Source: a virus
Virus record (IMG/VR): IMGVR_UViG_3300028809_000015
Location: 1-61,006 of that record
Direction: 5' to 3' (one strand)
Length of the DNA stretch: 61,006 nucleotides
Under the pieces are notes generated by a model, which saw nothing but the letters and a program-made list of their open reading frames with translations, was not told where the DNA came from and did not search any database. Shown here piece by piece: positions 24,067 through 60,752 of the stretch. The position numbers were made by a program, and so were the translations under genes. Each line of letters opens with the position of its first letter. Position 1 is the stretch's first letter.

Positions 24067-24497
24067 GCACTCTTGTCATCAACAGCGACGAGTCCCTGCA
24101 ACGCTTTTTTGGCATGTTGCGCGAGGATTTCGCCAAATACAAATATCTGCAAATGAACTGGAAGCGCGGCAAAGATCGCAGCGCAAAGCAGAATAGCCTT
24201 AGTCACGCATGGTACGCGCAAATGGCCCGCGAACTGCGGGAAGACGACGAGCTTGGATGGAAGTGCTACTGCAAGTTGCACCACGGCGTGCCGATCCTTC
24301 GCGCCGAAGATGCCGAGTTCCGCGAGACATACGACGGCGCAATCAAAGGCCTGACCTACGAACAGAAGCTAAAGGTCATGCGCCTATTCCCAGTCACGTC
24401 CTTAATGACCAAAGAGCAGCTATCCAAGTACGCAGAATCTGTGCAGATGGACTTTGCGCAGCGTGGCGTGCGTCTTGACTTTCCGGAGGCGAAGTGA
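24063..24497 (+). CDS. NinB-like protein
   Basis: A 144-residue protein with a GTG start overlapping the previous stop. Residues KQNSLSHAWYAQMARELRED, then GWKCYCKLHHGVPILR, then TSLMTKEQLSKYAESVQMDF and a final Q-R-G-V-R-L follow the order of landmarks in NinB/Orf proteins (QN-x-x-W, W-K, T-S-x-M, R-G-V). NinB assists RecBCD-independent recombination. NinG lies further down the same transcript. The similarity is by pattern only. Confidence 0.55.
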   Translation: MSTLVINSDESLQRFFGMLREDFAKYKYLQMNWKRGKDRSAKQNSLSHAWYAQMARELREDDELGWKCYCKLHHGVPILRAEDAEFRETYDGAIKGLTYEQKLKVMRLFPVTSLMTKEQLSKYAESVQMDFAQRGVRLDFPEAK

Positions 24498-25888
24498 TCG
24501 ATCGATACCTTGAGTTTATCAAATCAAAGCAGGCATCGTTCGTGCCTTCCGGCTTTGATTGCGGCGATCTTGGTGGTCATATGTTCGACTTCCAAAAGGC
24601 GATGGTGCAATGGGCGCTCAAGCGTGGGCGCGCCGCCTTATTCGCTGATACTGGCCTTGGTAAGACCATTATGGAATCGACATGGGCGCAGAAAGTCCAT
24701 GAACACACAGGCGCCAATGTCCTGATCGTTGCGCCGCTGTGCGTTTCTCAACAGACAGTCGAAGAAGCAGCCAAGTTTGGCATCACAATCAAATATTGCC
24801 GCTCACAGGAGGAGGTTGAGCCGGGCATCACGATCACCAACTATGAAATGCTGGAAAAGTTCGATCTGGATTCGTTCATTGCTGTCGTGCTGGATGAGTC
24901 CTCGATCATCAAGAGCCATACCAGCAAGACACGCGACTTCATCATTTCCGCTTTCCGCGATACGCCCTACAAGCTTACCGCGACCGCAACACCTAGCCCG
25001 AACGACTTCATCGAACTGGGCAATCAGGCGCAATTTCTGGGCGTGATGAGCCAGCAGGAAATGCTCGCGACGTTCTTTACTCACGATGGCGGCGATACGT
25101 CGAAATGGCGCCTTAAAGGCCACGGCAAAACCAAATTCTGGGAATGGATGGCGACCTGGGCGATCTGCGTGCGCAGCCCGGCCGATCTTGGTTTTGACGG
25201 CTCGCGGTACATCCTGCCCCCGTTGAATGTGCGTGAACACGTTGTATCTGGCGGCGAGCTTCTTGATGGGCATCTGTTCGCTACGGTGGCGATGAGCTTG
25301 TCCGAGCGCCGCGAAGCCAAGCGCAAGAGTATGGCTGACCGCATTTGTCTGGCCGCCGACATCGCCAATGCGAACAATGAACCGTGCATCGTTTGGTGTC
25401 ACTTGAACGACGAATCAGCTGCGCTCGCCAGGGAAATCAATGGCGCAGTTGAAGTAACCGGCTCCATGAAACCGACTGAGAAGGAAGAAATGATCATGGC
25501 ATTCACGCACGGCGATGCCCGCGTGATCGTGACGAAGCCATCCATCGCCGGATTCGGCATGAACTGGCAGCACTGCCGCAACATGATCTTTGCCGGCATG
25601 GATGACTCGTTCGAATCCTATTACCAGGCAGTGCGCCGTTGCTATCGCTTCGGACAGAAACGCGAAGTCAACGTGCACATCATCACCGCCGAAACCGAGG
25701 GCGCAGTGAAGGCCAACATCGAACGCAAGCAAGCGCAATCGAATGAAATGGCCGCGCAGATGGTTGACCACATGCGTGAAATCACTTGGCGCCAGATCAT
25801 TGGCGCATGCAGCAACACCGAGACATATATCGCCAGAGTTCCAATGACGGTTCCCGCCTGGCTTGTTCAAAACGTGGAGGCGGCATGA
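24494..25888 (+). CDS. SNF2-type DEAD/H helicase-like ATPase
   Basis: A 464-residue protein from GTG 24494. Walker A is ADTGLGKT (residues 51-58), motif II is L-D-E-S near residue 134 (VVLDESSIIKS), motif III is LTATATPSPND, and the C-terminal lobe has CIVWCHLNDESAALAREING then a final motif QAVRRCYRFGQKREVNVHII, the R-x-x-R-x-x-Q element of SNF2 proteins. Phage SNF2 helicases act in replication or recombination. It is followed by a methyltransferase with overlapping start. Confidence 0.88.
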   Translation: MIDRYLEFIKSKQASFVPSGFDCGDLGGHMFDFQKAMVQWALKRGRAALFADTGLGKTIMESTWAQKVHEHTGANVLIVAPLCVSQQTVEEAAKFGITIKYCRSQEEVEPGITITNYEMLEKFDLDSFIAVVLDESSIIKSHTSKTRDFIISAFRDTPYKLTATATPSPNDFIELGNQAQFLGVMSQQEMLATFFTHDGGDTSKWRLKGHGKTKFWEWMATWAICVRSPADLGFDGSRYILPPLNVREHVVSGGELLDGHLFATVAMSLSERREAKRKSMADRICLAADIANANNEPCIVWCHLNDESAALAREINGAVEVTGSMKPTEKEEMIMAFTHGDARVIVTKPSIAGFGMNWQHCRNMIFAGMDDSFESYYQAVRRCYRFGQKREVNVHIITAETEGAVKANIERKQAQSNEMAAQMVDHMREITWRQIIGACSNTETYIARVPMTVPAWLVQNVEAA

Positions 25889-26769
25889 ACGTCATCAATC
25901 AGGAAATCACCGACAAGTTCGCCCTGTATCACGCCGATTGCGTGGATACGGCGCGTGCCATTCCCGACAACTCGATCGACTTCAGTGTCTACTCGCCGCC
26001 GTTTGAGTCGCTGTATGTGTTTTCAAACTCAGAGCGAGACATGGGCAACAACGCCAGCTCAGAGGATTTTTGGGCGCACTACAATTTCCTGATTGCCGAG
26101 CATTTCCGCATCATGAAGCCTGGCCGCCTTATCGCGATCCATTGCATGAACCTGCCGACCTCGAAGGTGCGCGACGGGTATATCGGTATCAAGGACTTCC
26201 GCGGCGAAATCATTCGCGCGCACCAGAAGGCCGGGTTCATCTATCACTCCGAGGTTTGCATTTGGAAAGACCCGGTAGTCGCCATGCAGCGTACCAAGGC
26301 GCTAGGCCTGCTCTACAAACAACTCAAGAAAGACAGCGCCATGTCGCGGCAGGGTATTGCTGATTACCTGGTAGTCGTTCGCAAGCCGGGTGACAACCCC
26401 GATCCGGTTACAAAGACCGAAGACGGGTTCCGCGTTGATAAGTGGCAACAATACGCATCGCCGGTCTGGATGGACGTCAATCAAACCCGCACGCTGCAAT
26501 ATATGAGTGCCAGAGAAAGCGACGACGAGCGCCATATCTCACCGCTTCAGCTTGACGTGATTGAGCGCGCTATTGATCTGTGGACGAATCCGGATGATCT
26601 TGTTTATTCGCCGTTCGTCGGCATCGGATCGGAACTCTATACGGCATTAAAGATGGGGCGGCGAGGAGTCGGCTCAGAACTAAAGCGCAGCTACTTTGAA
26701 GTTGCTCGACGCAATCTGCTTGAGGCAAAAGCGGAGCAAGTCGACCTCTTCTCCGAGTTGGGCGCATGA
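25885..26769 (+). CDS. DNA methyltransferase (N4/N6 type)
   Basis: A 294-residue protein from ATG 25885 overlapping the helicase stop. The catalytic motif IV is S37-P-P-F40 (FSVYSPPFESL). The AdoMet-binding motif I is near residue 243 (YSPFVGIGSELYTALKMGRR), so motif IV precedes motif I (beta-class order). S-P-P-F/Y is more usual for N4-cytosine enzymes but does not exclude N6-adenine. No restriction enzyme lies nearby, so protection of phage DNA or regulation is likely. Confidence 0.88.
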   Translation: MNVINQEITDKFALYHADCVDTARAIPDNSIDFSVYSPPFESLYVFSNSERDMGNNASSEDFWAHYNFLIAEHFRIMKPGRLIAIHCMNLPTSKVRDGYIGIKDFRGEIIRAHQKAGFIYHSEVCIWKDPVVAMQRTKALGLLYKQLKKDSAMSRQGIADYLVVVRKPGDNPDPVTKTEDGFRVDKWQQYASPVWMDVNQTRTLQYMSARESDDERHISPLQLDVIERAIDLWTNPDDLVYSPFVGIGSELYTALKMGRRGVGSELKRSYFEVARRNLLEAKAEQVDLFSELGA

Positions 26770-48057: not shown

Positions 48058-48519
48058 ATGCCGTTACAAGCCGCCTTTTACAAAGCCACCCGCCCCGGTA
48101 TCCCTGGAATTTACAACCGGCTGGTGCGAGCGTGGGAGCCGGGAGAATATAGCCACTGCGAGTTGATTTTTTCGGATGGGCTGGCGGCGTCTGCATCGTT
48201 CATGGATGGCGGGGTACGTTTCAAACGGATCGATTTCGACCCGAGGCATTGGGACATCATCGACTTGGGATGGGCAGATGAAGATTATGCGCGTCAATGG
48301 TTCGCAGATCACGAGCATGCGCCATATGACGTAATCGGACAGGTGCATTTTGTGATCAGTCCGGTGCGCGGCAGTAAGCGCGGTTACTGGTGCTCTGAGG
48401 CGATGGCGGCCGCACTGCGGTTGAAAGATCCATGGAGGTACGGGCCAAATTTATTACACGCTGTCCTAAGCAGTACATCACTCAACCCCGCTTCGGCGGG
48501 TTTTTTATTGCCCGGTTGA
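48058..48519 (+). CDS. Permuted papain-fold (NlpC/P60-like) enzyme candidate
   Basis: A 153-residue protein. The segment GEYSHCELIFSDGLAASASF has the early His and RGYWCSEAMAAALRL the later Cys, the order of permuted NlpC/P60-like amidases. The last residues (NPASAGFLLPG) are encoded by the terminator hairpin at 48487-48506, so the natural C-terminus overlaps it. It may cut peptidoglycan during entry, or be a tail-associated enzyme. Confidence 0.75.
   Translation: MPLQAAFYKATRPGIPGIYNRLVRAWEPGEYSHCELIFSDGLAASASFMDGGVRFKRIDFDPRHWDIIDLGWADEDYARQWFADHEHAPYDVIGQVHFVISPVRGSKRGYWCSEAMAAALRLKDPWRYGPNLLHAVLSSTSLNPASAGFLLPG
48487..48506 (+). terminator. UUCG terminator within the end of the 48058 gene
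   Basis: CCCGC-TTCG-GCGGG (48487-48500) then TTTTTT. It overlaps the final codons of the upstream gene, so transcription and the end of translation are closely tied. Confidence 0.85.
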
Positions 48520-48957: not shown

Positions 48958-49214
48958 TACTTGCTATCAATCTGATCGCAGCAGCGATCATCCTAATCTA
49001 TGGACTGGCCGCGATAAACAAAATGGGGTGGCGTACATGTTACGGGATGCGCGCTGCGTGGCTGGTCCTGACAACCGGTGCACTTGGGGTCCTGATTTCC
49101 CCGATCTATGGACACCAGTATTTTGGCTTGTGGGAGACGGCTCTGAACGTGGGAATTGCGCTGCATGTTGTATTTGAGCGCAGGCGCTCTCGTGACGAGA
49201 GGAGGGCGATATGA
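48954..49214 (+). CDS. Second small membrane protein of the lysis cassette
   Basis: An 86-residue protein overlapping the previous stop. Segments MILAINLIAAAIILIYGLAA, AWLVLTTGALGVLISPIYG and ETALNVGIALHVVF are hydrophobic, followed by a basic tail (ERRRSRDERRAI). It could be a second holin or an antiholin; its overlap with both neighbours shows co-translation. Confidence 0.75.
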   Translation: MILAINLIAAAIILIYGLAAINKMGWRTCYGMRAAWLVLTTGALGVLISPIYGHQYFGLWETALNVGIALHVVFERRRSRDERRAI

Positions 49215-49777
49215 CTCGCGACCAACTGCTGGCGATCATGCCCTACGCAAAAACACGTGTAGATATGTTTCTGCCGCACCTGAATGCAGCAATGGCCGAA
49301 TTTGAGATCAATACGCCGGCGCGACAGGCGGCATTCCTTGCCCAGATCGGGCATGAGTCAGGGCAATTGCTATATGTCCGCGAGCTGGCCAGCGGCTCAG
49401 CCTATGACGTCGGGGATCTTGCGCGCCGCCTCGGCAACACTCCTGAAGACGACGGCGACGGCGAGCGCCTCAAAGGGCGCGGACTGATCCAGATCACCGG
49501 ACACGACAACTACCTTGCTTGTTCGATGGCCTTGTTCGGTGATGACCGATTGCTGCACTTTCCTGAGTTGTTGGAGGATGCGCGCAACGCCTGTCGATCG
49601 GCTGGCTGGTTTTGGCGTTCACGCAGACTCAATGAGCTGGCCGACCTTTGCAATTTCAGACTCATCACCAAGCGAATCAACGGCGGCTACAACCATTACA
49701 AGGCGCGAGTCGCCCTGTATTTCGCCGCGATCAAGCATCTTGGAGCGTTACCAATATCAAAGGAGGTTCGGCTATGA
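49211..49777 (+). CDS. GH19 endolysin
   Basis: A 188-residue protein. AAFLAQIGHESGQLLYVREL has the catalytic Glu (HESG), and KGRGLIQITGHDNYLACSMA is the GH19 Y/G-R-G-x-x-Q-x-T-G motif. The C-terminal part (LITKRINGGYNHYKARVAL) includes the N-G-G element of the family. It hydrolyses cell-wall glycans for host lysis. No signal peptide, so release depends on the holin. Confidence 0.9.
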   Translation: MTRDQLLAIMPYAKTRVDMFLPHLNAAMAEFEINTPARQAAFLAQIGHESGQLLYVRELASGSAYDVGDLARRLGNTPEDDGDGERLKGRGLIQITGHDNYLACSMALFGDDRLLHFPELLEDARNACRSAGWFWRSRRLNELADLCNFRLITKRINGGYNHYKARVALYFAAIKHLGALPISKEVRL

Positions 49778-50487: not shown

Positions 50488-51702
50488 ATGGCAATAAGTA
50501 AGTCTACGGCAGACCAGATTCAGTCTTGGTACACGACATATCTTGGGCGCGAGGCGGATGCAGGAGGATTGCAAAATTGGGCGTCCGCATTGGACAGCGG
50601 AGCAAATGTCTCGGATTTGCAATCTGCATTCCAAAGGGATGCATCGTCTGAGATCTCAGCCCGCCAATCGGCGGTGCCAGCCACAAGTAGCGGAGGCGGC
50701 GGCAGCTCGACGGGCTTGATTAATTCCATTCCCGGAGTGAGTTTCGCTGACTACAACGGGAAACAAGTCAGGGTAGATGATTATTACAAAAAGGACCTAA
50801 CCGACAATGCGGCAGATTTAGGCAAGAGGCTCGGTCGCACGATCACTGCGCAGGAATACGACGCGATGATCAATCCGGATACTTATGGCGCTCGGTGGGG
50901 GAATGTGGCTAACCCCGGGAAGAGTTCTGGGCCGGCGCTTTTATCGCAGACGGATCTCACTCAGCGCTCTGTTAGTCCAGCGACAGAAACTGTAAGTGGT
51001 CAAATGGGGAGCCTTCTTTCTGCGGATAGCCCCTACATGCAATCCGCGCGAGCACGCGGGCAACGTGCAGCGGCATCAAGGGGGCTAATAAATAGCTCGA
51101 TGGCCGGCACTGCTGGCGAGTCCGCTGCGATTGATGCCGCTCTTCAAATCGCCACGCCAGATGCCGCCACTTATGGCCGTGCCAGTGATTACAACACCGC
51201 ACTGGCGAACCAGACAGCGCAGTACAACGCGGATGTCCAAAACGATTTTACGCAACGCCAGCTAGACCGCAACCAACAACAATCGCTCGCGCAAATGCAG
51301 GATGCGACATCGCGATATACAGCAGAGCTGAGTTCAAACACATCACGTTACAACACAGACGCCGATTACCGCAGGACGATAGATGCCAATCGAGATTCGT
51401 TGGTGAATAACATCCTGATGAGTGGCGATTCAATCTCACCAGACCGTAAGGCCGCGATGCTGGAACAGCTTGGCATGGGCACTGCAGCACGCAGAGACGC
51501 CGGCGGAAATGTTATCCCAGGCACTGGCTTGGCTGGTGCCATCTACGTCATCGACAGTGTGAGCGCAGATTTGGTTGCACCAAGCCAGCAGCAATTCCGT
51601 GGAATAGTTGGGGGCAATGCAGGCGGGGTTGGCAACGGAGATGGTGGCGACGGAGGAGGCAGCGGTGGCGATGGCGGATTTGGTGGCGGGATTTCGGTCT
51701 GA
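50488..51702 (+). CDS. DUF4214-type virion protein
   Basis: A 404-residue protein. The N-terminal domain (STADQIQSWYTTYLGREADA then GGLQNWASALDSGANV) is DUF4214-like. The middle is a coiled coil (NDFTQRQLDRNQQQSLAQMQ) and the end is glycine-rich. Such proteins are internal or ejected virion components in podoviruses. It starts the ejection-protein block 50488-60752. Confidence 0.75.
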   Translation: MAISKSTADQIQSWYTTYLGREADAGGLQNWASALDSGANVSDLQSAFQRDASSEISARQSAVPATSSGGGGSSTGLINSIPGVSFADYNGKQVRVDDYYKKDLTDNAADLGKRLGRTITAQEYDAMINPDTYGARWGNVANPGKSSGPALLSQTDLTQRSVSPATETVSGQMGSLLSADSPYMQSARARGQRAAASRGLINSSMAGTAGESAAIDAALQIATPDAATYGRASDYNTALANQTAQYNADVQNDFTQRQLDRNQQQSLAQMQDATSRYTAELSSNTSRYNTDADYRRTIDANRDSLVNNILMSGDSISPDRKAAMLEQLGMGTAARRDAGGNVIPGTGLAGAIYVIDSVSADLVAPSQQQFRGIVGGNAGGVGNGDGGDGGGSGGDGGFGGGISV

Positions 51703-52052
51703 TGGACGCCCGCATTGTCAGATATTTTGAAACACTGGGCGTTTCGTCCGAAGCGTTAGATGGGTGGGATGTCAAGTTAGCCCAGCGGGATGGCAAGGAT
51801 TGCGGATTCATCCTGACGAAGGGATCGGAAATCCACATGCAAGCATTCGAAAGCGGCGCGATGTCTCGCAAGAATATTACCGAATACCTGCAGCCACTGC
51901 TTGATGAATATGGCTACGCGACGACGCGTGTTCCCATCGCCGAAAGAGACCACAAATTGCGCCAAGTTCTAGGGTTTGAAATGACTTGGCAGGACGAAAG
52001 TTTCACCTATTGGGCGATTACAGAAATGCCTTTCCAGCGAAGGAATAAGTAA
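51702..52052 (+). CDS. GNAT-like small protein in the ejection block
   Basis: A 116-residue protein overlapping both neighbours by one base. DARIVRYFETLGVSSEALDG, then NITEYLQPLLDEYGYATTRV, then AERDHKLRQVLGFEMTWQDE then SFTYWAITEMPF recall the C-terminal half of GNAT acetyltransferases (N/D-H-x-x-R-x-x-L-G-F). Activity is unproven; the virion context may mean a structural use of the fold. Confidence 0.65.
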   Translation: MDARIVRYFETLGVSSEALDGWDVKLAQRDGKDCGFILTKGSEIHMQAFESGAMSRKNITEYLQPLLDEYGYATTRVPIAERDHKLRQVLGFEMTWQDESFTYWAITEMPFQRRNK

Positions 52053-52981
52053 TGAATAAACATTATCTAACAATTGGGCAGTCTCGCATCTACACGCTGG
52101 ATAACCCTATTGGCGACGCTTTCGGCGGGGCCGCGTATGGCGAGCGGAGGATGCCGGTTGCGGCGGTTGCAATGGCTGCAGGCAGTTTCGCGGCTGGGGC
52201 GACGGCATTCGCTGCGGCCACCACGACACTTGGCGCTATTGCTGCTGGTGCGACGATGATCGGCTCCGCGTTGACGATTATCGGCACGGTCACCGGCAAT
52301 GCAAAGCTGGCGAAAATCGGCGGAGTTCTTTCAATTGGCGGAATGGTTGGCACAGGATTGATTAACCATGCCGCCAAAAATGCTGCGGCTTCCGCTGGCG
52401 CGGCAGAGGCGGGGACAGCGTTAGCCGAAGGTGGAGCGGTTAATGAAGCAGCCGGTATCGCTGACGCCGTAGCCGATACCGGTGCGACCGGAATAGCAGG
52501 CGCCCCGACCGCAGGTACAGATTTGGCAGTGGATTCCATGCAATCAGCCGGGCCAATGACTGACATCCAGGCGCAAGGACTTATCGACAGGGTGCCGCCT
52601 ACGGTCGCTGATACGGCAACAGGACTGCAGCAACAAATTGGTTCGGACGCATCCAATGCGATGGTCGCCCAAGCACCTAACACATTGAGCACTGCAGGCA
52701 CTGGCGTAGAGCAATCCCTGCAAGGAAGCGCATTCGATCCAGAGATGAACAAGCTGTTGAGGCAACAGGAGCTTGTTCAGCAAGGTCAAGGCGGGTTTTT
52801 CGATAAGTTTGGCCGGTGGGTGAAAGACAACAAGGAATTAGTGCAGCTTGGCGGCGAAGGATTGAAAGCTGTTGGGGCGCTACTGCCTAGCGACAAAGCA
52901 AAGGCAGAGGCTGAATATTACAAGACGAAATCTGAAGAGACGCGTCGCCGTGCGCTTTGGGCTTCTGGCCGTACGGCGTAA
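52052..52981 (+). CDS. Ejection/internal virion protein with hydrophobic N-terminal part
   Basis: A 309-residue protein. Residues about 33-110 are Ala/Gly-rich and hydrophobic (AAVAMAAGSFAAGATAFAAA then TTTLGAIAAGATMIGSALTI), the type that can insert into membranes; the rest is polar. It lies in the ejection block and probably helps the genome cross the envelope. No family name secure. Confidence 0.7.
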   Translation: MNKHYLTIGQSRIYTLDNPIGDAFGGAAYGERRMPVAAVAMAAGSFAAGATAFAAATTTLGAIAAGATMIGSALTIIGTVTGNAKLAKIGGVLSIGGMVGTGLINHAAKNAAASAGAAEAGTALAEGGAVNEAAGIADAVADTGATGIAGAPTAGTDLAVDSMQSAGPMTDIQAQGLIDRVPPTVADTATGLQQQIGSDASNAMVAQAPNTLSTAGTGVEQSLQGSAFDPEMNKLLRQQELVQQGQGGFFDKFGRWVKDNKELVQLGGEGLKAVGALLPSDKAKAEAEYYKTKSEETRRRALWASGRTA

Positions 52982-52993
52982 ACTGGAGATCAC

Positions 52994-53515
52994 ATGGACC
53001 AGCAAAACATTCAACAAGAAATCAATCAAGCAGGAACAGATCGATCCGGTATGGTCGATGTGGATTCAATCATCTCCGACATTGACGGGAAGATCCCATC
53101 GAACTTGAGGGGTATGTATGACAAGCTCATCTTGAGCGGCATGCGCATCATGTTTGATCGGAACTCGCATCAGATGTTTCTCGATCAGCTCGACAAGCCA
53201 GGCGACATGCCGACGAAGATGGCAGAGGGGATCATCAGTCTGATTTACATGTTGTGGGAGCGAAGCAATAAGACGATCCCGCCGCAGCTTATCTATCCGG
53301 TGACAGTCGTTCTCACGCTGCGCGCATTCGAATTTCTCCAGCGAGCTGGAGAACAAGAGGCTACGCCGGAGGTTTTGGGCGAGGCTGTATCTCAGTCTGT
53401 TGAGGGAGTTGTCTCGCGCTTCGGGTTTTCCGAGGATCAACTGTTGAACGCGGTGCAAGCACAGAAGTCAGGGAACAAGCGCGGTTTAATCAACGCACAA
53501 CCGGGAGGTAAGTAA
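52994..53515 (+). CDS. Ejection-block protein of unknown role
   Basis: A 173-residue protein from ATG 52994. LRGMYDKLILSGMRIMFDRN, HQMFLDQLDKPGDMPTKMAE, then VYPVTVVLTLRAFEFLQRAG-like helices and a C-terminal VSRFGFSEDQLLNAVQAQKS. Mostly helical. Function unknown; co-transcribed with the large virion gene. Confidence 0.7.
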   Translation: MDQQNIQQEINQAGTDRSGMVDVDSIISDIDGKIPSNLRGMYDKLILSGMRIMFDRNSHQMFLDQLDKPGDMPTKMAEGIISLIYMLWERSNKTIPPQLIYPVTVVLTLRAFEFLQRAGEQEATPEVLGEAVSQSVEGVVSRFGFSEDQLLNAVQAQKSGNKRGLINAQPGGK

Positions 53516-53517
53516 TC

Positions 53518-54594
53518 ATGGCTGATTGGGGTGCGGCACTCTCGTCACTAGGCGGATCGATTTCTAATCTTGCGGGCGCTGCGATTAAGCGCGAAGAGGA
53601 TCAAGCGGCGGAGGAACGGGCGGCAGATAGAAAGCTGGCTGATGCGGAGCGTCTTCTTGCGATTCAAGAAGCCATGAAGATGCGCGCGCATGAACGCTTC
53701 TCCAGCGTGGCAAAAATGAAAATGGAAGAACAGGTGCCGGTTCAGTCGGAGCCTGTCACGTCCTTGACGCCGGAAAGCGCGCGCGCGTCAGGCTTGAAAA
53801 ACGGCTTAATAAACGTGGACCCTGGGCAAATGGCTGGGAAGCTCCAGGCAATCCTGTTTGATCCGAATGCCACGCCGGAGCAAAAAGCAGATGCGCAGGG
53901 AATACTTGAGCAAATCACCGAACAGGCCGCAGCGCAAAAGGGGTTGAATGAAGAGGCCGCCGCAGGGAAGACGCGGAAGAGGACATTCTCAGAAGCTGTC
54001 CAGGCCGCGCGCGAGGAGACCGCTTTGAATGACCCAGCAGCGTTCGTCGCTGGGGAATCGATGTTCGGTGGCGATCGCAAGGCCGAACTCGAAGAGAAGA
54101 AGCTGACTTCCAAGGAGAAAATGGAGCAGTTGCGTATCGAGCAGCGCGACCGTAGCGACGACAAGCGCTTCGAGGCGATGATGGCACGCATTGAATCTGC
54201 TACAGGCGGCAAGGGCGGAAACAGTACGGCACTCATCCAGAATGCCGAATACCTTAAAACGCTTGGCTATTCCGACGACAAGATCGAGAAGTTTATCTTC
54301 GAGAAAAAGGAGATACCGCTTGCCGATCTGGCCGCGAAAATCATGGCCGGCGATTCCGTGCTTACGCCGCAAGAGGCGGCACAAAAAGCGGTGCAACTGA
54401 GCCGTGCGTTGGACGCGAGCCAAGTTAAAGTTCCTGATAAGCAAGGCGCATCGCAAGGTGCATCACCCTACCCAGAAGGTACTCCGCTTCGCGGGAAGGA
54501 CGGGAAAACCTACGTTGTAAAGAACGGGCAGCCCGTACTTCAGACGCAAGCCGGAAGAACTAGCGGTGGCCTCATCAACATGCGCCCACAATAA
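53518..54594 (+). CDS. Helical ejection-block protein
   Basis: A 358-residue protein. Residues about 20-60 and 180-240 are charged coiled coils (KREEDQAAEERAADRKLADA, LRIEQRDRSDDKRFEAMMAR). The end is a short repeated K-D-G-K-T domain (EGTPLRGKDGKTYVVKNGQP). It precedes the giant virion gene by nine bases. Function unknown. Confidence 0.7.
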   Translation: MADWGAALSSLGGSISNLAGAAIKREEDQAAEERAADRKLADAERLLAIQEAMKMRAHERFSSVAKMKMEEQVPVQSEPVTSLTPESARASGLKNGLINVDPGQMAGKLQAILFDPNATPEQKADAQGILEQITEQAAAQKGLNEEAAAGKTRKRTFSEAVQAAREETALNDPAAFVAGESMFGGDRKAELEEKKLTSKEKMEQLRIEQRDRSDDKRFEAMMARIESATGGKGGNSTALIQNAEYLKTLGYSDDKIEKFIFEKKEIPLADLAAKIMAGDSVLTPQEAAQKAVQLSRALDASQVKVPDKQGASQGASPYPEGTPLRGKDGKTYVVKNGQPVLQTQAGRTSGGLINMRPQ

Positions 54595-54602
54595 GGAAAC
54601 TC

Positions 54603-57600
54603 ATGTCAACAAAATGGGATGATTTCACTCCGATTGACGAAGACGTTACTGACAGTGCCGCTGTTGATTGGGCGTCTTTCACGCCGATTGAGGCGAAGAA
54701 TGGACGTAATGCTTTTGCCGTCGCCAATGATACGGTCATTGAGGCGGGTAATGCCGTTGCCAGCGGTGCTGGCGCGATTGCAAACTTCATCTCCCCAGGC
54801 AACAGATTTTCCAGGTCGGTTGATGAGTTTGTAAAGTCCGGAGAAGAAAAGCAAAGCGATGTCACGAAGGCTGACAAGGAGCAATTCCGCTCTGATCTTC
54901 AGAATTCGGACACGATCAGCGACGACTTGGCTGCCGTGGGGCGACATGTTGTATCTAGTCCGCTCCAAGTTGCCGCGCAGGCGGCTGGTAGTTTTGCCGG
55001 CCCCGGCCTTGCTGTCGGTGCTGCGCGCGGACTTGCCGGTTTGCTTGGCGTAGGAGCGAAGATCGCTGGCCGTGTTGGACTTGGTGCTGGCGCGACAACC
55101 GGCGCGGCAATGGGCGGTGGTGACGCCGCAGGGAGCGCGTACGAGCTGGTGCAGCAAATCAGCGACGACGTTCTGCTGAAGGTCCCTGAAGTCGTTGAGA
55201 TGCGCAATTCCGGCATGTCGATGCAAGACGTCCGGCATGAAGTGGCGACCGCTGCCGCGCGTGATGCTAGTGTATTTCCCGCGCTTGCTGGCGGCGTCGC
55301 CGGTCTGGTTGGCGCGGAGAGGCTTCTTGCTGTGGGCAAGGTCGGTCAGGCTGGCGTAAAGGGAGTATTGGCAACCGGCGCTATTGAAGGTGCTACTGAA
55401 GCGGCTGAAGAAGGTCTGACCCAGTTTGAGGGGCGTCGTGCTGCGCAGCAGTACGATCAATCCATTGACCCGACCAAAAACGTCGCCGCCATGGCTGCGA
55501 TGGGTGGAATAACTGGATTTGGTACAGGCGCGGGCTTGAGCGCGATCACCAGGCCGACTCCGAAGATTGAAGACATCGCCTCCGCCGAATCCGTGGACGA
55601 GGCGATAGCAGCTGCAAACGCTGTCGTGACCGCTCCGCATCCGTCAGCGAACGCGGACCAGCAGAAACTATTGATGGAATTAGAAAGACAAGCCAAGCAG
55701 GTCGCTGAGCCTATCGTTTCGAATCCCATCGAACAGCCTTCTATGGCGGTGCCGTCCGAGCAAATAGCTGTTCCTCCTGCAGTTGCCGCGCAAGAGACGC
55801 CAATTCCAGAGCTTGAAGACTTCATTAAACGCGGACGCACAAAGGACGAACTGTTTGCCGAACGTGAGGCGCAACGCCGCATGCAGGAAGACGCCGCGCG
55901 TGAGCAGGGCATCGCAAAGATGCTGGAAGCCGGTCGAGATCAGCAGGTAGAACAGGCAGAGGTTTTGACGCAGGCGCAAGGATTTGATTCTGCCGAGCCA
56001 ACCGCCATGCAATTGGCGATGCAAAAAGCGCAGGAGCGCCGGAGATTATTAACTACGCCAATTTCCCAACGTCAGCCGGTTCAAGCGGAATCGCCAAAAA
56101 TTGAGGGGCAAACAAATGACAAGCAATCCCTTGCCACTGATTTACCAATTCGAGATGGGGGCGTTGGAGGCGCTGAAGTTGGCGCGCCAATGCTGGGAAG
56201 TGCCGCGACAGGACGCCAAATTGCTGCGCAATCTGCTCCTATGGGATCGCCCAATACCCAAGCGGTTGTTCCCGTTGGTGGAACTGATATTTTTGCTACA
56301 AACCAGACCGCCAACGAACAGCCTGCATTAGGTCAAACTGCCCCGCAAGTAGCTGATGTCGCTGCAATAGAGCGAAGGCTAGACGCGAACGCCCGCAAGC
56401 TGGTTGACCAGATGACGCCGGAAGAAATGCGCCGCGCGCTGTTGACCGATGAAATGACTGGACTTGGGAACCGCCGCGCCTATAATGAAGTTGTCAAAAA
56501 ACCATTTCAGGCAAGCATCGATATTGATTCGTTGAAGTGGATTAATGACAACATGGGGCATGAGGCCGGCGATCAGTTGATTCAGGCTGTCGGCACGGCG
56601 ATGCGGGATGAAATTGCGGATTCCTACCATCTCAGCGGCGACGAATTCGCGGCGCAGTTTGATGATGAAGTCACTGGCAACGAGGCGATTGCCAGAGTGC
56701 GCGAGAGATTGAATGGTGCTACATTTACCTACACGGCACCAGACGGAACCGTTATTACAAAACAGGGAGCGGAGTTAAGCTATGGAATCGCAGACACCTA
56801 TGGCGCAGCCGATGAAAAGCTCAAAGCCGACAAAGCAGGTAGAGAAGCCAGAGGCGAGCGCGCCGGACGAGGCGCAGAGCCTGCAGGCGTGGTTAGAAAG
56901 CCTGCCGCCAGGCGGGAAATTGACCGTGACGCTGCCGCCCAAGAAGTAGAAGCGGGGCCACAGGCAAAGGGCGAAGACGCCAAGTTCTTCCAGCCCGGCA
57001 GCGCAGCAGAAGAAAGCATCGTCCCAGAAACGACTTTCAAAAAAGCAGGGCCTTTCAAGACCAAGACCGATGCGTCTTTATTCCGAGATAAACATAAGCT
57101 ATCTGGCGTATCTATTAGGCAGACGGAAGGCGGATGGGTATTTGACCCAACTCCAGCGCCGCTGACGGATGCGGAGCGAGAGGCTGTTCGTGCCGATATT
57201 CAGGCGTTGAACAAAACTCTCAAGGCAAACGGCATCCCTGCTGTGCTGCCGATCTATACCGCGCCCACCGCCAACCACCAACTCGCTCGCAGTATCGCCA
57301 AGGTCTTTGGCGCCGAAGTCCGCTTTGTCTCAAACAACAAGGTATTCCAAGGTGTTGCGCATCGGGGAAAGGCTTTCATCGCCTCCAGCATGAAGCACCC
57401 GGAATTGGCGATTACGGGGCATGAGACGTTCCACGTCATGGAGCAAACCAATCCTGAGCTGGCTGATGGGCTGCTGGAACAAGTCCGCGCCTATCTCCAA
57501 GACGACGCCATCCCAGACCGGCAGATGCGCGAAGAACTGATGGCTGGCCGCTCGATCAGCGAGCGCTATGCTGCCGGCGAAGTGCTTGCCGACCTGAACG

Positions 57601-60600
57601 GTGCCATGTGGCTTGACCCGAAGTTCTGGCGCGAGATGGTGCAGCGCGATGTGAATCTGTTCCGCCGCGTGGCTTATGTGTTCATGGAGAACGCGACTAA
57701 GGCCATTGAATCGCTGACCGGGACACGGTTCGACGTGGAAGCGCTGGTGACGGATGTTGATAAGGTGCGCTCGATCATTGCGCAGGCTTGGGCGGATCAC
57801 AATCAGGGGCGGGATAAAAAGACGCCAAAAGACGATGATGTGCAGTTCTCGCGCGTCGACGCTGATCGCAGCGCCACTCCAGATAAGCCGAACGATTCCG
57901 CTATTCCAGAAGAAACCAGCACACAAGCGGCTCGCCGAGTTATTCAGGATAAATTCAACCGCTTCAAGGTTCTGCAGGCGAATATTGAAATGGTGGCTGC
58001 GCAGGAGGCTGGCTATCAAGGCGACGACATTTTTGAAGCTCGCGCTTTCATGGAAGAAAAGGGCATACTAAATCCAATTAGCGACCAGTCTGACGTGTAT
58101 CAGGCTGAAACACTGATGTCCGGTCGAATCTCTACTCGCAAGGAGGATTTCCGCGAAAGACAGATGAACCCGCTAATCGAAAAGACTTACGCCGCCGGAC
58201 TGAGCATGTCGCAGGTTGCTGACTTCCTGAAGATGCAGCACGCTCCTGAGGCGAACAATAGAGCGCGCGAAATTCAAGGCAGCCCGGAAGCTACTGCTTT
58301 CGGAATATCGGACGAAAAAGCCGCGCAAGCAATGAAGGAATTCAAGGCGCTACCAAACTTCAGCGAACTGAAGAGCGTCGCTAATGAATGGCGAGCTATT
58401 ACGGAGCAGTCAAAGAAAATCCTTTTAGATGCCGGCATCATTACGAAAGAAATAGCTGACGCATGGGATGCAACATATTCCGTATATGTCCCAGTAAAAG
58501 GCAAGGATAGCAAGTCTGGCGGCGGCAAAGGATTGTCCGTGAATGGCAGGCAGAAGCAGCGCTTGGGACATAGCGAGCGTGACGAGGCGATTCTTGAAAA
58601 CATCCTCCGGGATCATGAGCGCGCGATTTCAAATCAGGAAGTCAACGAAGTTGGGATGACGCTCATCCGCTTTGGTCTGGCGGCGAAGAATCCCGACATC
58701 ATGACGATAGAAAAGCCGGCGAAGCGCCAAGTATTGAAAGATGCCTCAGCATTCGAGGTGCAATATAACGGTAATTTTGTTGCCGCGTTCAGCGACAAGG
58801 CGAGCGCAGAAGCATTCAAAGCAAAGGACGCGCTAAAGAATTCACGCGACACGAAAGATTATTCGATTGAGAAAACGACGAATCCATATGTCGCTCTCAT
58901 GACATCGCCGTTGCTCGCGGAGAATGAGGTAAACGTTTATGTGGCAGGCCATGCGGTGCGCATTCAAATTAACGATGAGATTGCCGCACGCGCCTATACT
59001 AACTTGGGGGTTGAAAGCCTTGGAGCAATCCTGTCAGCTGGTCGCGAAATCAACTCGTGGCTGTCAAAAGCGTATACCGGATACAGCCCCGATTTCATTT
59101 TGACAAATCCAATACGCGATGCGATTCAAGGATCTATCACCCTGGCAGGCGAGCATGGCGCCGGCATGGCAGCAAAGATATTTGGCAATTATCCGCTGGC
59201 AGTAAAAGAGCTGGTCAAACACTTCCGCGAGCCAGGGAAATCGAAGTTGGTGACTGAATACCGGGCGGCAGGGGGATCGACTGGTGCTGCATACCTATCG
59301 GATCTTGAGCGAATCGGCAATGACGTGATGGCGGCTTACGACGAGTGCGCGGGTGCTATTGCAACATATCGACGTGTTTATGCAGAGAAAATCGAAAGTG
59401 GCGCCAGCCCAGCAAAAGCAGGCACTTATGCAGCAGCAAAGGCCGGACTGTCCGGGTTCAAAAATCTACCAGTGATCGGCCATTTCTTGCGGCTGATGGA
59501 GCGAATCAACGCCGTAACTGAAAACGCGCTACGCGTCGCAACGTTTAAAACGCTGGTCGATAACGGCGTCAGCAGGCCGAAAGCGGCGGCACAGGCCAAG
59601 AACTTGATGAACTTCAATCGCAAAGGCGAGTTGTCAAACCAGGCAGGAGCGCTTTACTTGTTTTTTAACCCGAGCGTACAGGGGGCATCTCTTTTTGCTG
59701 ACACGCTCGCCACGTCGAAGCACAAGAACCAAGCGCGCGCATTGGCCGGCACGATGACGCTGGCTGCGTTGTTCCTCGCTGAAGCGGCTCGTAGTGACGG
59801 CGAAGACGATGAACGTAAATGGAAGCAAACGCCCGATCACGTGAAGGACCGCAATTGGGTTGTTGGTTTCGGCGATTATCAATTCACACTGCCCTTGCCG
59901 TATGGGTATGGCGTGTTCCAAACGCTTGGTAATGTGATGTCCGACTACATGCACGGCGAGGATGGTTATAAGCTCGGCATCCGCCTTGCCTCAAGTGTGT
60001 TCGGCAATTTCTCGCCGATTGGGAATCCAATGGAAGGGAAGTCGGCTGTTTTTTCAATGTCGCCAACGCTGCTCAAGCTGGCTGGCGGCCCGGGCATAAA
60101 CGAGAACACTTTTGGCCAGCAGATTAAGCCGGATCAGTGGGGATCTTCTAAGCCAGAGTCGCAACTGATGTACCGCAGCACGAAAGGGTCAAGCTACGCA
60201 GAGATTGCCGAGAGTCTTAACGCCATAACCGGCGGCTCAAAGTTTGAGCGAGGAATTATCGATGTTTCTCCGGAAACATTAAAGTATTGGGTTAAATCGC
60301 TTACCGGCGGCGCAGGACAATTTGCATTTGACTCCATCAATATTCCCTCAAATCTAGTTCAGGGCGCCCCTTTGGATCCCAAAGACATCCCGGTAGCGAG
60401 AAGATTTGTTCGGGAGGTTGGCGTCACCGATGCTCGATCGGCATTCTGGGAAAAGGCCAATGCAGTCAAGGCCGCAGCAGATACCTTTTCAACAGCAAAG
60501 AAGTCCGGCGACATGGCGGCGGCACGCGCAATATTCAACGAAAACAAGGCCCTAATATCGCTTGCCGACTACGCTAGGGAGTCGCAAAAGATGGCAAAAG

Positions 60601-60752
60601 CGCGAAGGGACCAAGCGGACAAAATCCGTATGGATGACGCAATCCCGTTGGCCGTAAAGCATGAAAGAATGAAGATTATCGAAATGAAGGAAGCTGCGGT
60701 TTATCAGCGGTTCTTAAAGAACTTTGACGCAAGGACTGAGGCGAAAAAATAG
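54603..60752 (+). CDS. Giant internal virion 'polyvalent' protein with GGDEF-like and zincin-like domains
   Basis: A 2049-residue protein. Residues 1-35 repeat W-x-x-F-T-P-I. About 110-240 are Ala/Gly-rich and hydrophobic (membrane-active). Residues 613-770 resemble a GGDEF domain: LTDEMTGLGNRRAYNE at 613, then SIDIDSLKWINDNMGHEAGD, then HLSGDEFAAQF with S678-G-D-E-F682. About 865-1030 carry H940-E-T-F-H944, an HExxH zincin motif. About 1460-1900 are helical modules of the large-polyvalent-protein type (INSWLSKAYTGYSPDFILTN, NRKGELSNQAGALYLFFNPS). It is probably packaged and ejected into the host. GGDEF enzyme activity is not proven (first G is S). Confidence 0.8.
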   Translation: MSTKWDDFTPIDEDVTDSAAVDWASFTPIEAKNGRNAFAVANDTVIEAGNAVASGAGAIANFISPGNRFSRSVDEFVKSGEEKQSDVTKADKEQFRSDLQNSDTISDDLAAVGRHVVSSPLQVAAQAAGSFAGPGLAVGAARGLAGLLGVGAKIAGRVGLGAGATTGAAMGGGDAAGSAYELVQQISDDVLLKVPEVVEMRNSGMSMQDVRHEVATAAARDASVFPALAGGVAGLVGAERLLAVGKVGQAGVKGVLATGAIEGATEAAEEGLTQFEGRRAAQQYDQSIDPTKNVAAMAAMGGITGFGTGAGLSAITRPTPKIEDIASAESVDEAIAAANAVVTAPHPSANADQQKLLMELERQAKQVAEPIVSNPIEQPSMAVPSEQIAVPPAVAAQETPIPELEDFIKRGRTKDELFAEREAQRRMQEDAAREQGIAKMLEAGRDQQVEQAEVLTQAQGFDSAEPTAMQLAMQKAQERRRLLTTPISQRQPVQAESPKIEGQTNDKQSLATDLPIRDGGVGGAEVGAPMLGSAATGRQIAAQSAPMGSPNTQAVVPVGGTDIFATNQTANEQPALGQTAPQVADVAAIERRLDANARKLVDQMTPEEMRRALLTDEMTGLGNRRAYNEVVKKPFQASIDIDSLKWINDNMGHEAGDQLIQAVGTAMRDEIADSYHLSGDEFAAQFDDEVTGNEAIARVRERLNGATFTYTAPDGTVITKQGAELSYGIADTYGAADEKLKADKAGREARGERAGRGAEPAGVVRKPAARREIDRDAAAQEVEAGPQAKGEDAKFFQPGSAAEESIVPETTFKKAGPFKTKTDASLFRDKHKLSGVSIRQTEGGWVFDPTPAPLTDAEREAVRADIQALNKTLKANGIPAVLPIYTAPTANHQLARSIAKVFGAEVRFVSNNKVFQGVAHRGKAFIASSMKHPELAITGHETFHVMEQTNPELADGLLEQVRAYLQDDAIPDRQMREELMAGRSISERYAAGEVLADLNGAMWLDPKFWREMVQRDVNLFRRVAYVFMENATKAIESLTGTRFDVEALVTDVDKVRSIIAQAWADHNQGRDKKTPKDDDVQFSRVDADRSATPDKPNDSAIPEETSTQAARRVIQDKFNRFKVLQANIEMVAAQEAGYQGDDIFEARAFMEEKGILNPISDQSDVYQAETLMSGRISTRKEDFRERQMNPLIEKTYAAGLSMSQVADFLKMQHAPEANNRAREIQGSPEATAFGISDEKAAQAMKEFKALPNFSELKSVANEWRAITEQSKKILLDAGIITKEIADAWDATYSVYVPVKGKDSKSGGGKGLSVNGRQKQRLGHSERDEAILENILRDHERAISNQEVNEVGMTLIRFGLAAKNPDIMTIEKPAKRQVLKDASAFEVQYNGNFVAAFSDKASAEAFKAKDALKNSRDTKDYSIEKTTNPYVALMTSPLLAENEVNVYVAGHAVRIQINDEIAARAYTNLGVESLGAILSAGREINSWLSKAYTGYSPDFILTNPIRDAIQGSITLAGEHGAGMAAKIFGNYPLAVKELVKHFREPGKSKLVTEYRAAGGSTGAAYLSDLERIGNDVMAAYDECAGAIATYRRVYAEKIESGASPAKAGTYAAAKAGLSGFKNLPVIGHFLRLMERINAVTENALRVATFKTLVDNGVSRPKAAAQAKNLMNFNRKGELSNQAGALYLFFNPSVQGASLFADTLATSKHKNQARALAGTMTLAALFLAEAARSDGEDDERKWKQTPDHVKDRNWVVGFGDYQFTLPLPYGYGVFQTLGNVMSDYMHGEDGYKLGIRLASSVFGNFSPIGNPMEGKSAVFSMSPTLLKLAGGPGINENTFGQQIKPDQWGSSKPESQLMYRSTKGSSYAEIAESLNAITGGSKFERGIIDVSPETLKYWVKSLTGGAGQFAFDSINIPSNLVQGAPLDPKDIPVARRFVREVGVTDARSAFWEKANAVKAAADTFSTAKKSGDMAAARAIFNENKALISLADYARESQKMAKARRDQADKIRMDDAIPLAVKHERMKIIEMKEAAVYQRFLKNFDARTEAKK

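Follow-up and report, generated by a model that had tools for sequence, protein, structure and literature searches.

The locus described here raises the question of whether a phage delivers a nucleotide-signalling enzyme into its host together with its DNA. The window, by which we mean the whole stretch of DNA that was analysed, is a virus record of 61,006 bases, and it contains an intact open reading frame (ORF) at 54603-60752 on the plus strand, encoding a giant protein of 2,049 amino acids. A first-pass annotation had described this product as a possibly ejected polyvalent protein with a GGDEF-like domain, a zincin motif and membrane-active parts. The coordinates that it gave for the ORF are exact, and an AAGGAA ribosome-binding site precedes the start.

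Genome setting and probable delivery scaffold

50488..54594, plus strand: five small genes of the presumed ejection block (starts 50488, 51702, 52052, 52994 and 53518), from gene order
54593..54598, plus strand: AAGGAA ribosome-binding site of the giant ORF, from the sequence
54603..60752, plus strand: polyvalent, probable virion (ejection) protein, 2049 aa, from the ORF call, Pfam, PHROG and homology to JC1 gp69
54696..55556, plus strand: N-terminal scaffold part, aa 32-318, phrog_18222, with aa 128-397 matching JC1 gp69, from PHROG and a pairwise match
57897..60737, plus strand: C-terminal scaffold, aa 1099-2045, common to Bcep22-like and Stx podoviruses, from homology
59817..60395, plus strand: LPD38 domain, aa 1739-1931, from Pfam

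Family matches place the giant ORF beside phage genes for an integrase, terminase, SU10-type portal, capsid, tail and lysis, and the phage is a temperate, podovirus-like one. The terminase, portal, capsid, tail and lysis genes all lie upstream, followed by five small genes, most of which gave no informative family match, and then by the giant ORF. This gene order, together with the relationship of the giant protein to one found in virions of phage JC1 (PMC9144972), bears out the proposed position in an ejection block. The presence of a GGDEF domain, a zincin motif and an LPD38 domain (Pfam, E=6e-33) in a single ORF of a virus record likewise agrees with the earlier description of polyvalent-protein modules. 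As for the membrane-active parts, we observed two Gly/Ala-rich stretches, at approximately aa 135-156 and 222-245, whose mean hydropathy of 1.3-1.55 is weakly suggestive of such a role.

Several minor features of the surrounding genes were also observed. The tetrapeptide GLIN occurs six times across four neighbouring ejection-block proteins (50488-51702, 52052-52981, 52994-53515 and 53518-54594), compared with a mean count of 0.019 in shuffled sequences, and two of these occurrences lie no more than 6 residues from a C-terminus (GLINAQPGGK and GLINMRPQ). A role as a linear motif in assembly or packaging is possible; in a loose scan of relatives, its conservation was not found. At 24494-26769, the ORFs of a DNA helicase and a DNA methyltransferase share approximately 100 bases, and each matches a different part of a single helicase family profile. 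At 49211-49777, an endolysin/chitinase-family gene separates the tail genes from the ejection genes. A small ORF at 48058-48519, directly 3' of the tail fibre genes, has an enoyl-CoA hydratase-like PHROG match (E=2e-32) that spans only part of the profile, and the PHROG name may be misleading.

The giant protein resembles proteins of known phages at its two ends. JC1 gp69, a DarB-like protein of a Bcep22-like Burkholderia phage, matches it at aa 128-397 and 1163-2041 (E=6.9e-123), with the middle unmatched; the two proteins also have LPD38 in common, and gp69 occupies an equivalent position, after two virion-associated genes and last in the virion gene block. DarB-like proteins from Bcep22-like phages of Burkholderia align with the C-terminal 950 aa at 31-32%, and Stx podovirus proteins at about 25%; the PHROG families found at the N-terminus (phrog_18222) and C-terminus (phrog_14770, 616 and 10691) are of unknown function. 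JC1 gp69 was identified in purified virions by 51 unique peptides in mass spectrometry (PMC9144972). Because its N- and C-terminal parts match those of this virion-found protein, the giant protein probably leaves with the DNA at ejection, and by the same homology it is very likely to be carried in the virion. Unlike the window protein, gp69 is 4515 aa in length, and its reported cargo consists of lytic-transglycosylase-like, helicase/methylase-like and LPD3 domains, with GGDEF not listed (PMC9144972).

The closest C-terminal relatives among viral contigs (L001-L007, 53-57%) carry, where scanned, either LPD37 together with a methyltransferase-like domain, or RadC, and no GGDEF domain was found in them. 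The closest GGDEF domain (L016, 62% over 178 columns) lies in a protein in which a match to the C-terminus of the window protein was not detected. Only two of 44 LPD38 giants have this GGDEF domain, and 28 of the 44 have an HExxH motif. Given that relatives by C-terminus carry other cargo, that the closest GGDEF domain sits on another scaffold and that the domain is rare among LPD38 giants, we read the protein most naturally as a scaffold for delivery whose cargo can be exchanged, with the GGDEF and zincin domains as that cargo in the middle. We also considered late or prophage-derived synthesis of the giant protein, in which case it would act within the cell that makes it or in the lysogen instead of being ejected. 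An integrase in the phage genome and standalone GGDEF relatives encoded outside structural gene blocks would fit such a role, but the terminal parts and gene position are those of a proven virion protein, JC1 gp69 (PMC9144972), and we regard this alternative as rather improbable.

The GGDEF domain and its phage clade

56412..56897, plus strand: GGDEF domain with phage-specific C-terminal extension, aa 604-765, from Pfam, alignment, model and fold matches
56520..56549, plus strand: DIDSLKWIND motif, aa 640-649 (metal Asp640, Lys645, guanine-binding Asn648), from motif and alignment
56634..56648, plus strand: SGDEF active-site hairpin, aa 678-682, from motif and alignment
56853..56882, plus strand: phage-clade motif GxRAxRGxxP, aa 751-760, from alignment

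The hallmark GGDEF motifs pointed out previously are all present in the giant protein, with TGLGNRR at aa 619, DIDSLK at aa 640 and SGDEF at aa 678-682, including D680 and E681. Pfam PF00990 matches aa 615-722 with E=4.6e-10 and 39.9 bits, well above the cut-off of 23.8. Searches against diguanylate cyclases in the PDB gave E-values down to 6.5e-7 with the single sequence and down to 6e-17 with the family profile. An AlphaFold model of the domain has a pLDDT of 92.5, and the 50 PDB fold matches listed are all GGDEF-domain structures, nearly all of them named diguanylate cyclases, so the concern that the fold might prove unrelated to GGDEF was not borne out. The profile, fold and clade evidence rules out a chance occurrence of the motif, and the identity of the domain as a true GGDEF domain is near certain.

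We compared 59 non-redundant phage and prophage GGDEF sequences from viral-contig and genome scans with 52 cellular sequences, which were fished with the pattern LKWINDN and are therefore biased to the nearest cellular relatives. In the resulting tree, 56 of the 59 phage sequences fall on one side of a branch with an SH-aLRT of 99, defining a phage-specific clade. The residues which, from PleD structures, we take to function in metal binding, GTP binding and catalysis are conserved family-wide: D640 and N648 in 59/59, K645 in 57/59, D657 as 55 Asp and 4 Asn, G679/D680/E681 in 58/58 (one row is gapped there) and K744 in all 53 sequences that reach this position. In fold and catalytic residues, the phage domain thus resembles bacterial diguanylate cyclases such as PleD, DgcB, DgcR and DosC.

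The phage domain differs from these enzymes at several other sites. Residue 678 is Ser in 56 of 58 phage sequences and Gly in 49 of 52 cellular ones, and position 676, which is Arg in 52/52 cellular sequences (the Arg of RxGGDEF), is mostly His in the phage clade, giving mostly HxSGDEF. The first helix (alpha-1) is shorter, with a median of 15 residues between the NRR and DxD motifs as opposed to 25. The RxxD product-inhibition site is found in 34 of 52 cellular relatives as compared with 3 of 59 phage sequences, and is thus missing in 56 of the latter. After SGDEF, the phage domain has the new, phage-specific motif GxRAxRGxxP, and the C-terminal Arg that binds phosphate in PleD is not at its usual position. 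The phage domain is also without a known sensor domain. Plasmid matches look like ordinary cellular-type cyclases by annotation.

Among 19 giant proteins with a mean column identity of 16%, nearly all invariant columns fall in the GGDEF domain, indicating that this module is kept while its surroundings turn over. The domain could instead be a module that serves virion structure or folding and plays no part in signalling, as its location inside very large virion-type proteins, the standalone group excepted, might suggest. Such a module, however, would not be expected to move between unrelated scaffolds, to exist as standalone proteins of 150-200 aa or to be absent from most LPD38 scaffolds (present in 2/44), and we consider this explanation very improbable.

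Probable catalytic activity and pairing with pyrophosphatase

GGDEF domains that act as receptors or decoys usually keep RxxD, and their active site may be lost. We observed the opposite in the phage family, in which RxxD occurs in 3/59 sequences and the active site is intact, and the receptor/decoy reading is disfavoured. Since a divergent family retains the active-site residues and lacks the RxxD c-di-GMP-binding site, an active, feedback-free cyclase is favoured over a c-di-GMP-binding decoy; of the two roles entertained in the first-pass annotation, the alignment speaks for the signalling enzyme and against the decoy. Overall, the phage GGDEF domain is, in our judgment, reasonably likely to be an active cyclase. 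The broader possibility of a catalytically dead domain that acts as a decoy, sponge or sensor by binding c-di-GMP or GTP has precedent in degenerate GGDEF receptors (reviewed in PMC3974145) and is consistent with Ser as the first motif residue. We consider it quite improbable, given that the active-site acidic residues are invariant and RxxD is gone in 56/59, the reverse of what a receptor would be expected to show, and that the domain is repeatedly paired with pyrophosphatase.

The SGDEF signature does not by itself decide activity: the SGDEF enzyme ECA3270 is cited as active in PMC3974145 and the SGDEF protein MbaA works in vivo (PMC8079147), whereas introducing Ser at the first motif position of VCA0965 abolished its activity (PMC3974145). 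We found no measured activity for any member of the phage GGDEF clade in the open-access literature searched.

The inorganic pyrophosphatase domain PF18823 is present in 16 of 51 GGDEF giants, where it is fused beside the GGDEF domain in either order (L020, L027, L033, L061, L010, L034, L044 and others). The median gap between the two domains is 56 aa, as compared with 562 for random placement, and presence or absence of the pyrophosphatase changes about 10 times on the tree. Only 2 of 44 LPD38 giants have the domain (Fisher p=0.001; p=0.014 with a conservative count of 11/45 that allows for near-related members), a comparison in which the LPD38 set differs in scaffold and related sequences are not independent. 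The association is asymmetrical, with GGDEF in only 2 of the best 80 pyrophosphatase ORFs, and the enrichment is suggestive. A full-sensitivity search found no pyrophosphatase domain in the window protein. Because a cyclase reaction gives off pyrophosphate, the pairing fits an active enzyme and lends supporting evidence to a cyclase. Iyer et al. (PMC5512222) suggest that the pyrophosphatases of polyvalent proteins remove pyrophosphate or act against nucleotides.

The domain might also be an active nucleotidyl cyclase, or another enzyme that uses GTP, with a product different from c-di-GMP (cGAMP or a linear dinucleotide, for instance, or hydrolysis of GTP only), and would in this way disturb nucleotide-based immunity of the host. 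The altered surroundings of the active site (SGDEF, His for Arg) are compatible with this, as are neighbours and fusion partners that are anti-defence or nucleotide-metabolism domains; both guanine-contact positions (N648 and D657), however, are kept in nearly all members, and we regard this as unlikely, although it is the alternative that we take most seriously.

Zincin-like domain, proposed entry mechanism and standalone relatives

57255..57827, plus strand: zincin-like metallopeptidase domain, about aa 885-1075, from alignment and model
57420..57434, plus strand: HETFH motif, aa 940-944, from motif and alignment
57579..57581, plus strand: Glu993, invariant third zinc-ligand candidate, from alignment

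The HETFH motif noted previously at aa 940 is weak evidence when taken alone, but phage relatives share with the window protein the pattern GHExxH...E...D..G..FW, represented downstream of HETFH by Glu993, Asp997 and Gly1000. The alignment over the domain comprises thirteen phage sequences, one of which (L173) is without the second His. These relatives were recovered from viral contigs with a four-sequence profile, a scan with the single sequence having given none. In a model of moderate confidence (pLDDT 76.5), strands 60-65, 72-75 and 78-82 are followed by the HETFH helix and then the Glu helix, so that alignment and model point to the arrangement of a polyvalent zincin, in which a three-stranded sheet precedes an HExxH helix and a further helix that supplies the Glu. 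In the structural search that had been suggested for this part, Foldseek gave no PDB match at E<=0.001, and a PDB sequence search likewise gave nothing significant. By the proposal of Iyer et al. (PMC5512222), such peptidases would cleave polyvalent proteins into working units, and by analogy the zincin is likely to cut the giant protein in this way.

In the mechanism that we propose, the N- and C-terminal parts, which homology shows to be common with Bcep22-like phages, are a packaging and delivery scaffold, and the middle is exchangeable cargo consisting of a putative diguanylate cyclase and the zincin. At infection, the giant protein would exit the capsid along with the DNA and the zincin would cut it, freeing the GGDEF module. 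This module would then dimerise and make c-di-GMP from host GTP using the active-site residues identified by alignment, and with RxxD absent from the aligned sequence its synthesis would escape product inhibition. Speculatively, an early c-di-GMP pulse could alter motility, pili or envelope of the entered cell, with the exclusion of rival phages as the most plausible consequence or a sessile lysogen favoured instead. Several points count against this proposal: the Ser of SGDEF, the mostly His for Arg substitution, the PleD-type Arg missing from its usual position, the short alpha-1, the lack of a pyrophosphatase in the window protein and of a PDB match for the zincin, and the swimming of LK3 lysogens described below. 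We consider the whole, comprising an ejected scaffold, cyclase cargo and a c-di-GMP pulse at entry, to stand slightly on the probable side. The wider generalisation, that many unrelated phages carry this feedback-free cyclase clade in their particles, sometimes with a pyrophosphatase that removes the by-product, and raise host c-di-GMP at entry before phage gene expression, is tentative and falls somewhat short of an even chance.

The first-pass annotation regarded delivery of a signalling enzyme at entry as new. Iyer et al. 2017 (PMC5512222), however, already report GGDEF domains in polyvalent proteins, one of them with a zincin, and propose cyclic-nucleotide signalling against the host or rivals. 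That example, Acetonema longum prophage protein WP_004096050.1, is likewise a giant phage protein thought to be delivered on entry, but it also has SWI2/SNF2, methyltransferase and ART domains, whereas the window protein combines LPD38 with a scaffold of the Bcep22-like type. Given this report and the earlier GGDEF annotation in Yua-like phages, the idea of a phage-borne GGDEF domain is not new. We found no analysis of clade, active site or RxxD for the GGDEF domain in the accessible text of PMC5512222, nor did the open-access literature searched contain a defined phage clade, a missing inhibition site, pyrophosphatase pairing, cargo-swap anatomy or an enzyme assay. Provided that the clade is active, phages would control a second messenger of central importance to bacteria from the moment of entry, and early remodelling of the host, superinfection exclusion or a shift towards biofilm could be accounted for in this way.

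Standalone members of the clade (phrog_5594), of about 152-156 aa, are encoded by YuA (gp44), MP1412, PaSz-4 and Bordetella phages CN1/CN2 and LK3. YuA gp44 and the CN1 and LK3 proteins share DSLKW(I/V)ND, GDEF and GxRAxRG with the window protein, but unlike it they stand alone outside the structural genes, in several genomes near a KlcA/ArdB-type antirestriction gene. This gene lies just downstream in YuA, MP1412, PaSz-4, WP2 and CN1 (PF03230 confirmed in CN1 and WP2) and does not adjoin the GGDEF gene in PC1 and CN2. The standalone genes are under purifying selection (dN/dS 0.2-0.48), and YuA gp44 and the LK3 protein were already annotated as diguanylate cyclases. Bordetella LK3 lysogens, which carry the standalone gene, show increased biofilm and also increased swimming (PMC8471281); the latter is not expected of high c-di-GMP, and the phenotype neither proves nor disproves cyclase activity. 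At about 155 aa and from cultured Pseudomonas and Bordetella phages, these Yua-type proteins make the question of activity directly testable in laboratory strains. In Yua-like phages (L015:19248-20474, L176:2186-3471 and L182:613-1965), a conserved gene of 250-295 aa, without a Pfam match and assigned to phrog_3628 by annotation, stands immediately before the standalone GGDEF gene, and the product of this conserved gene is a possible partner of the standalone GGDEF protein.
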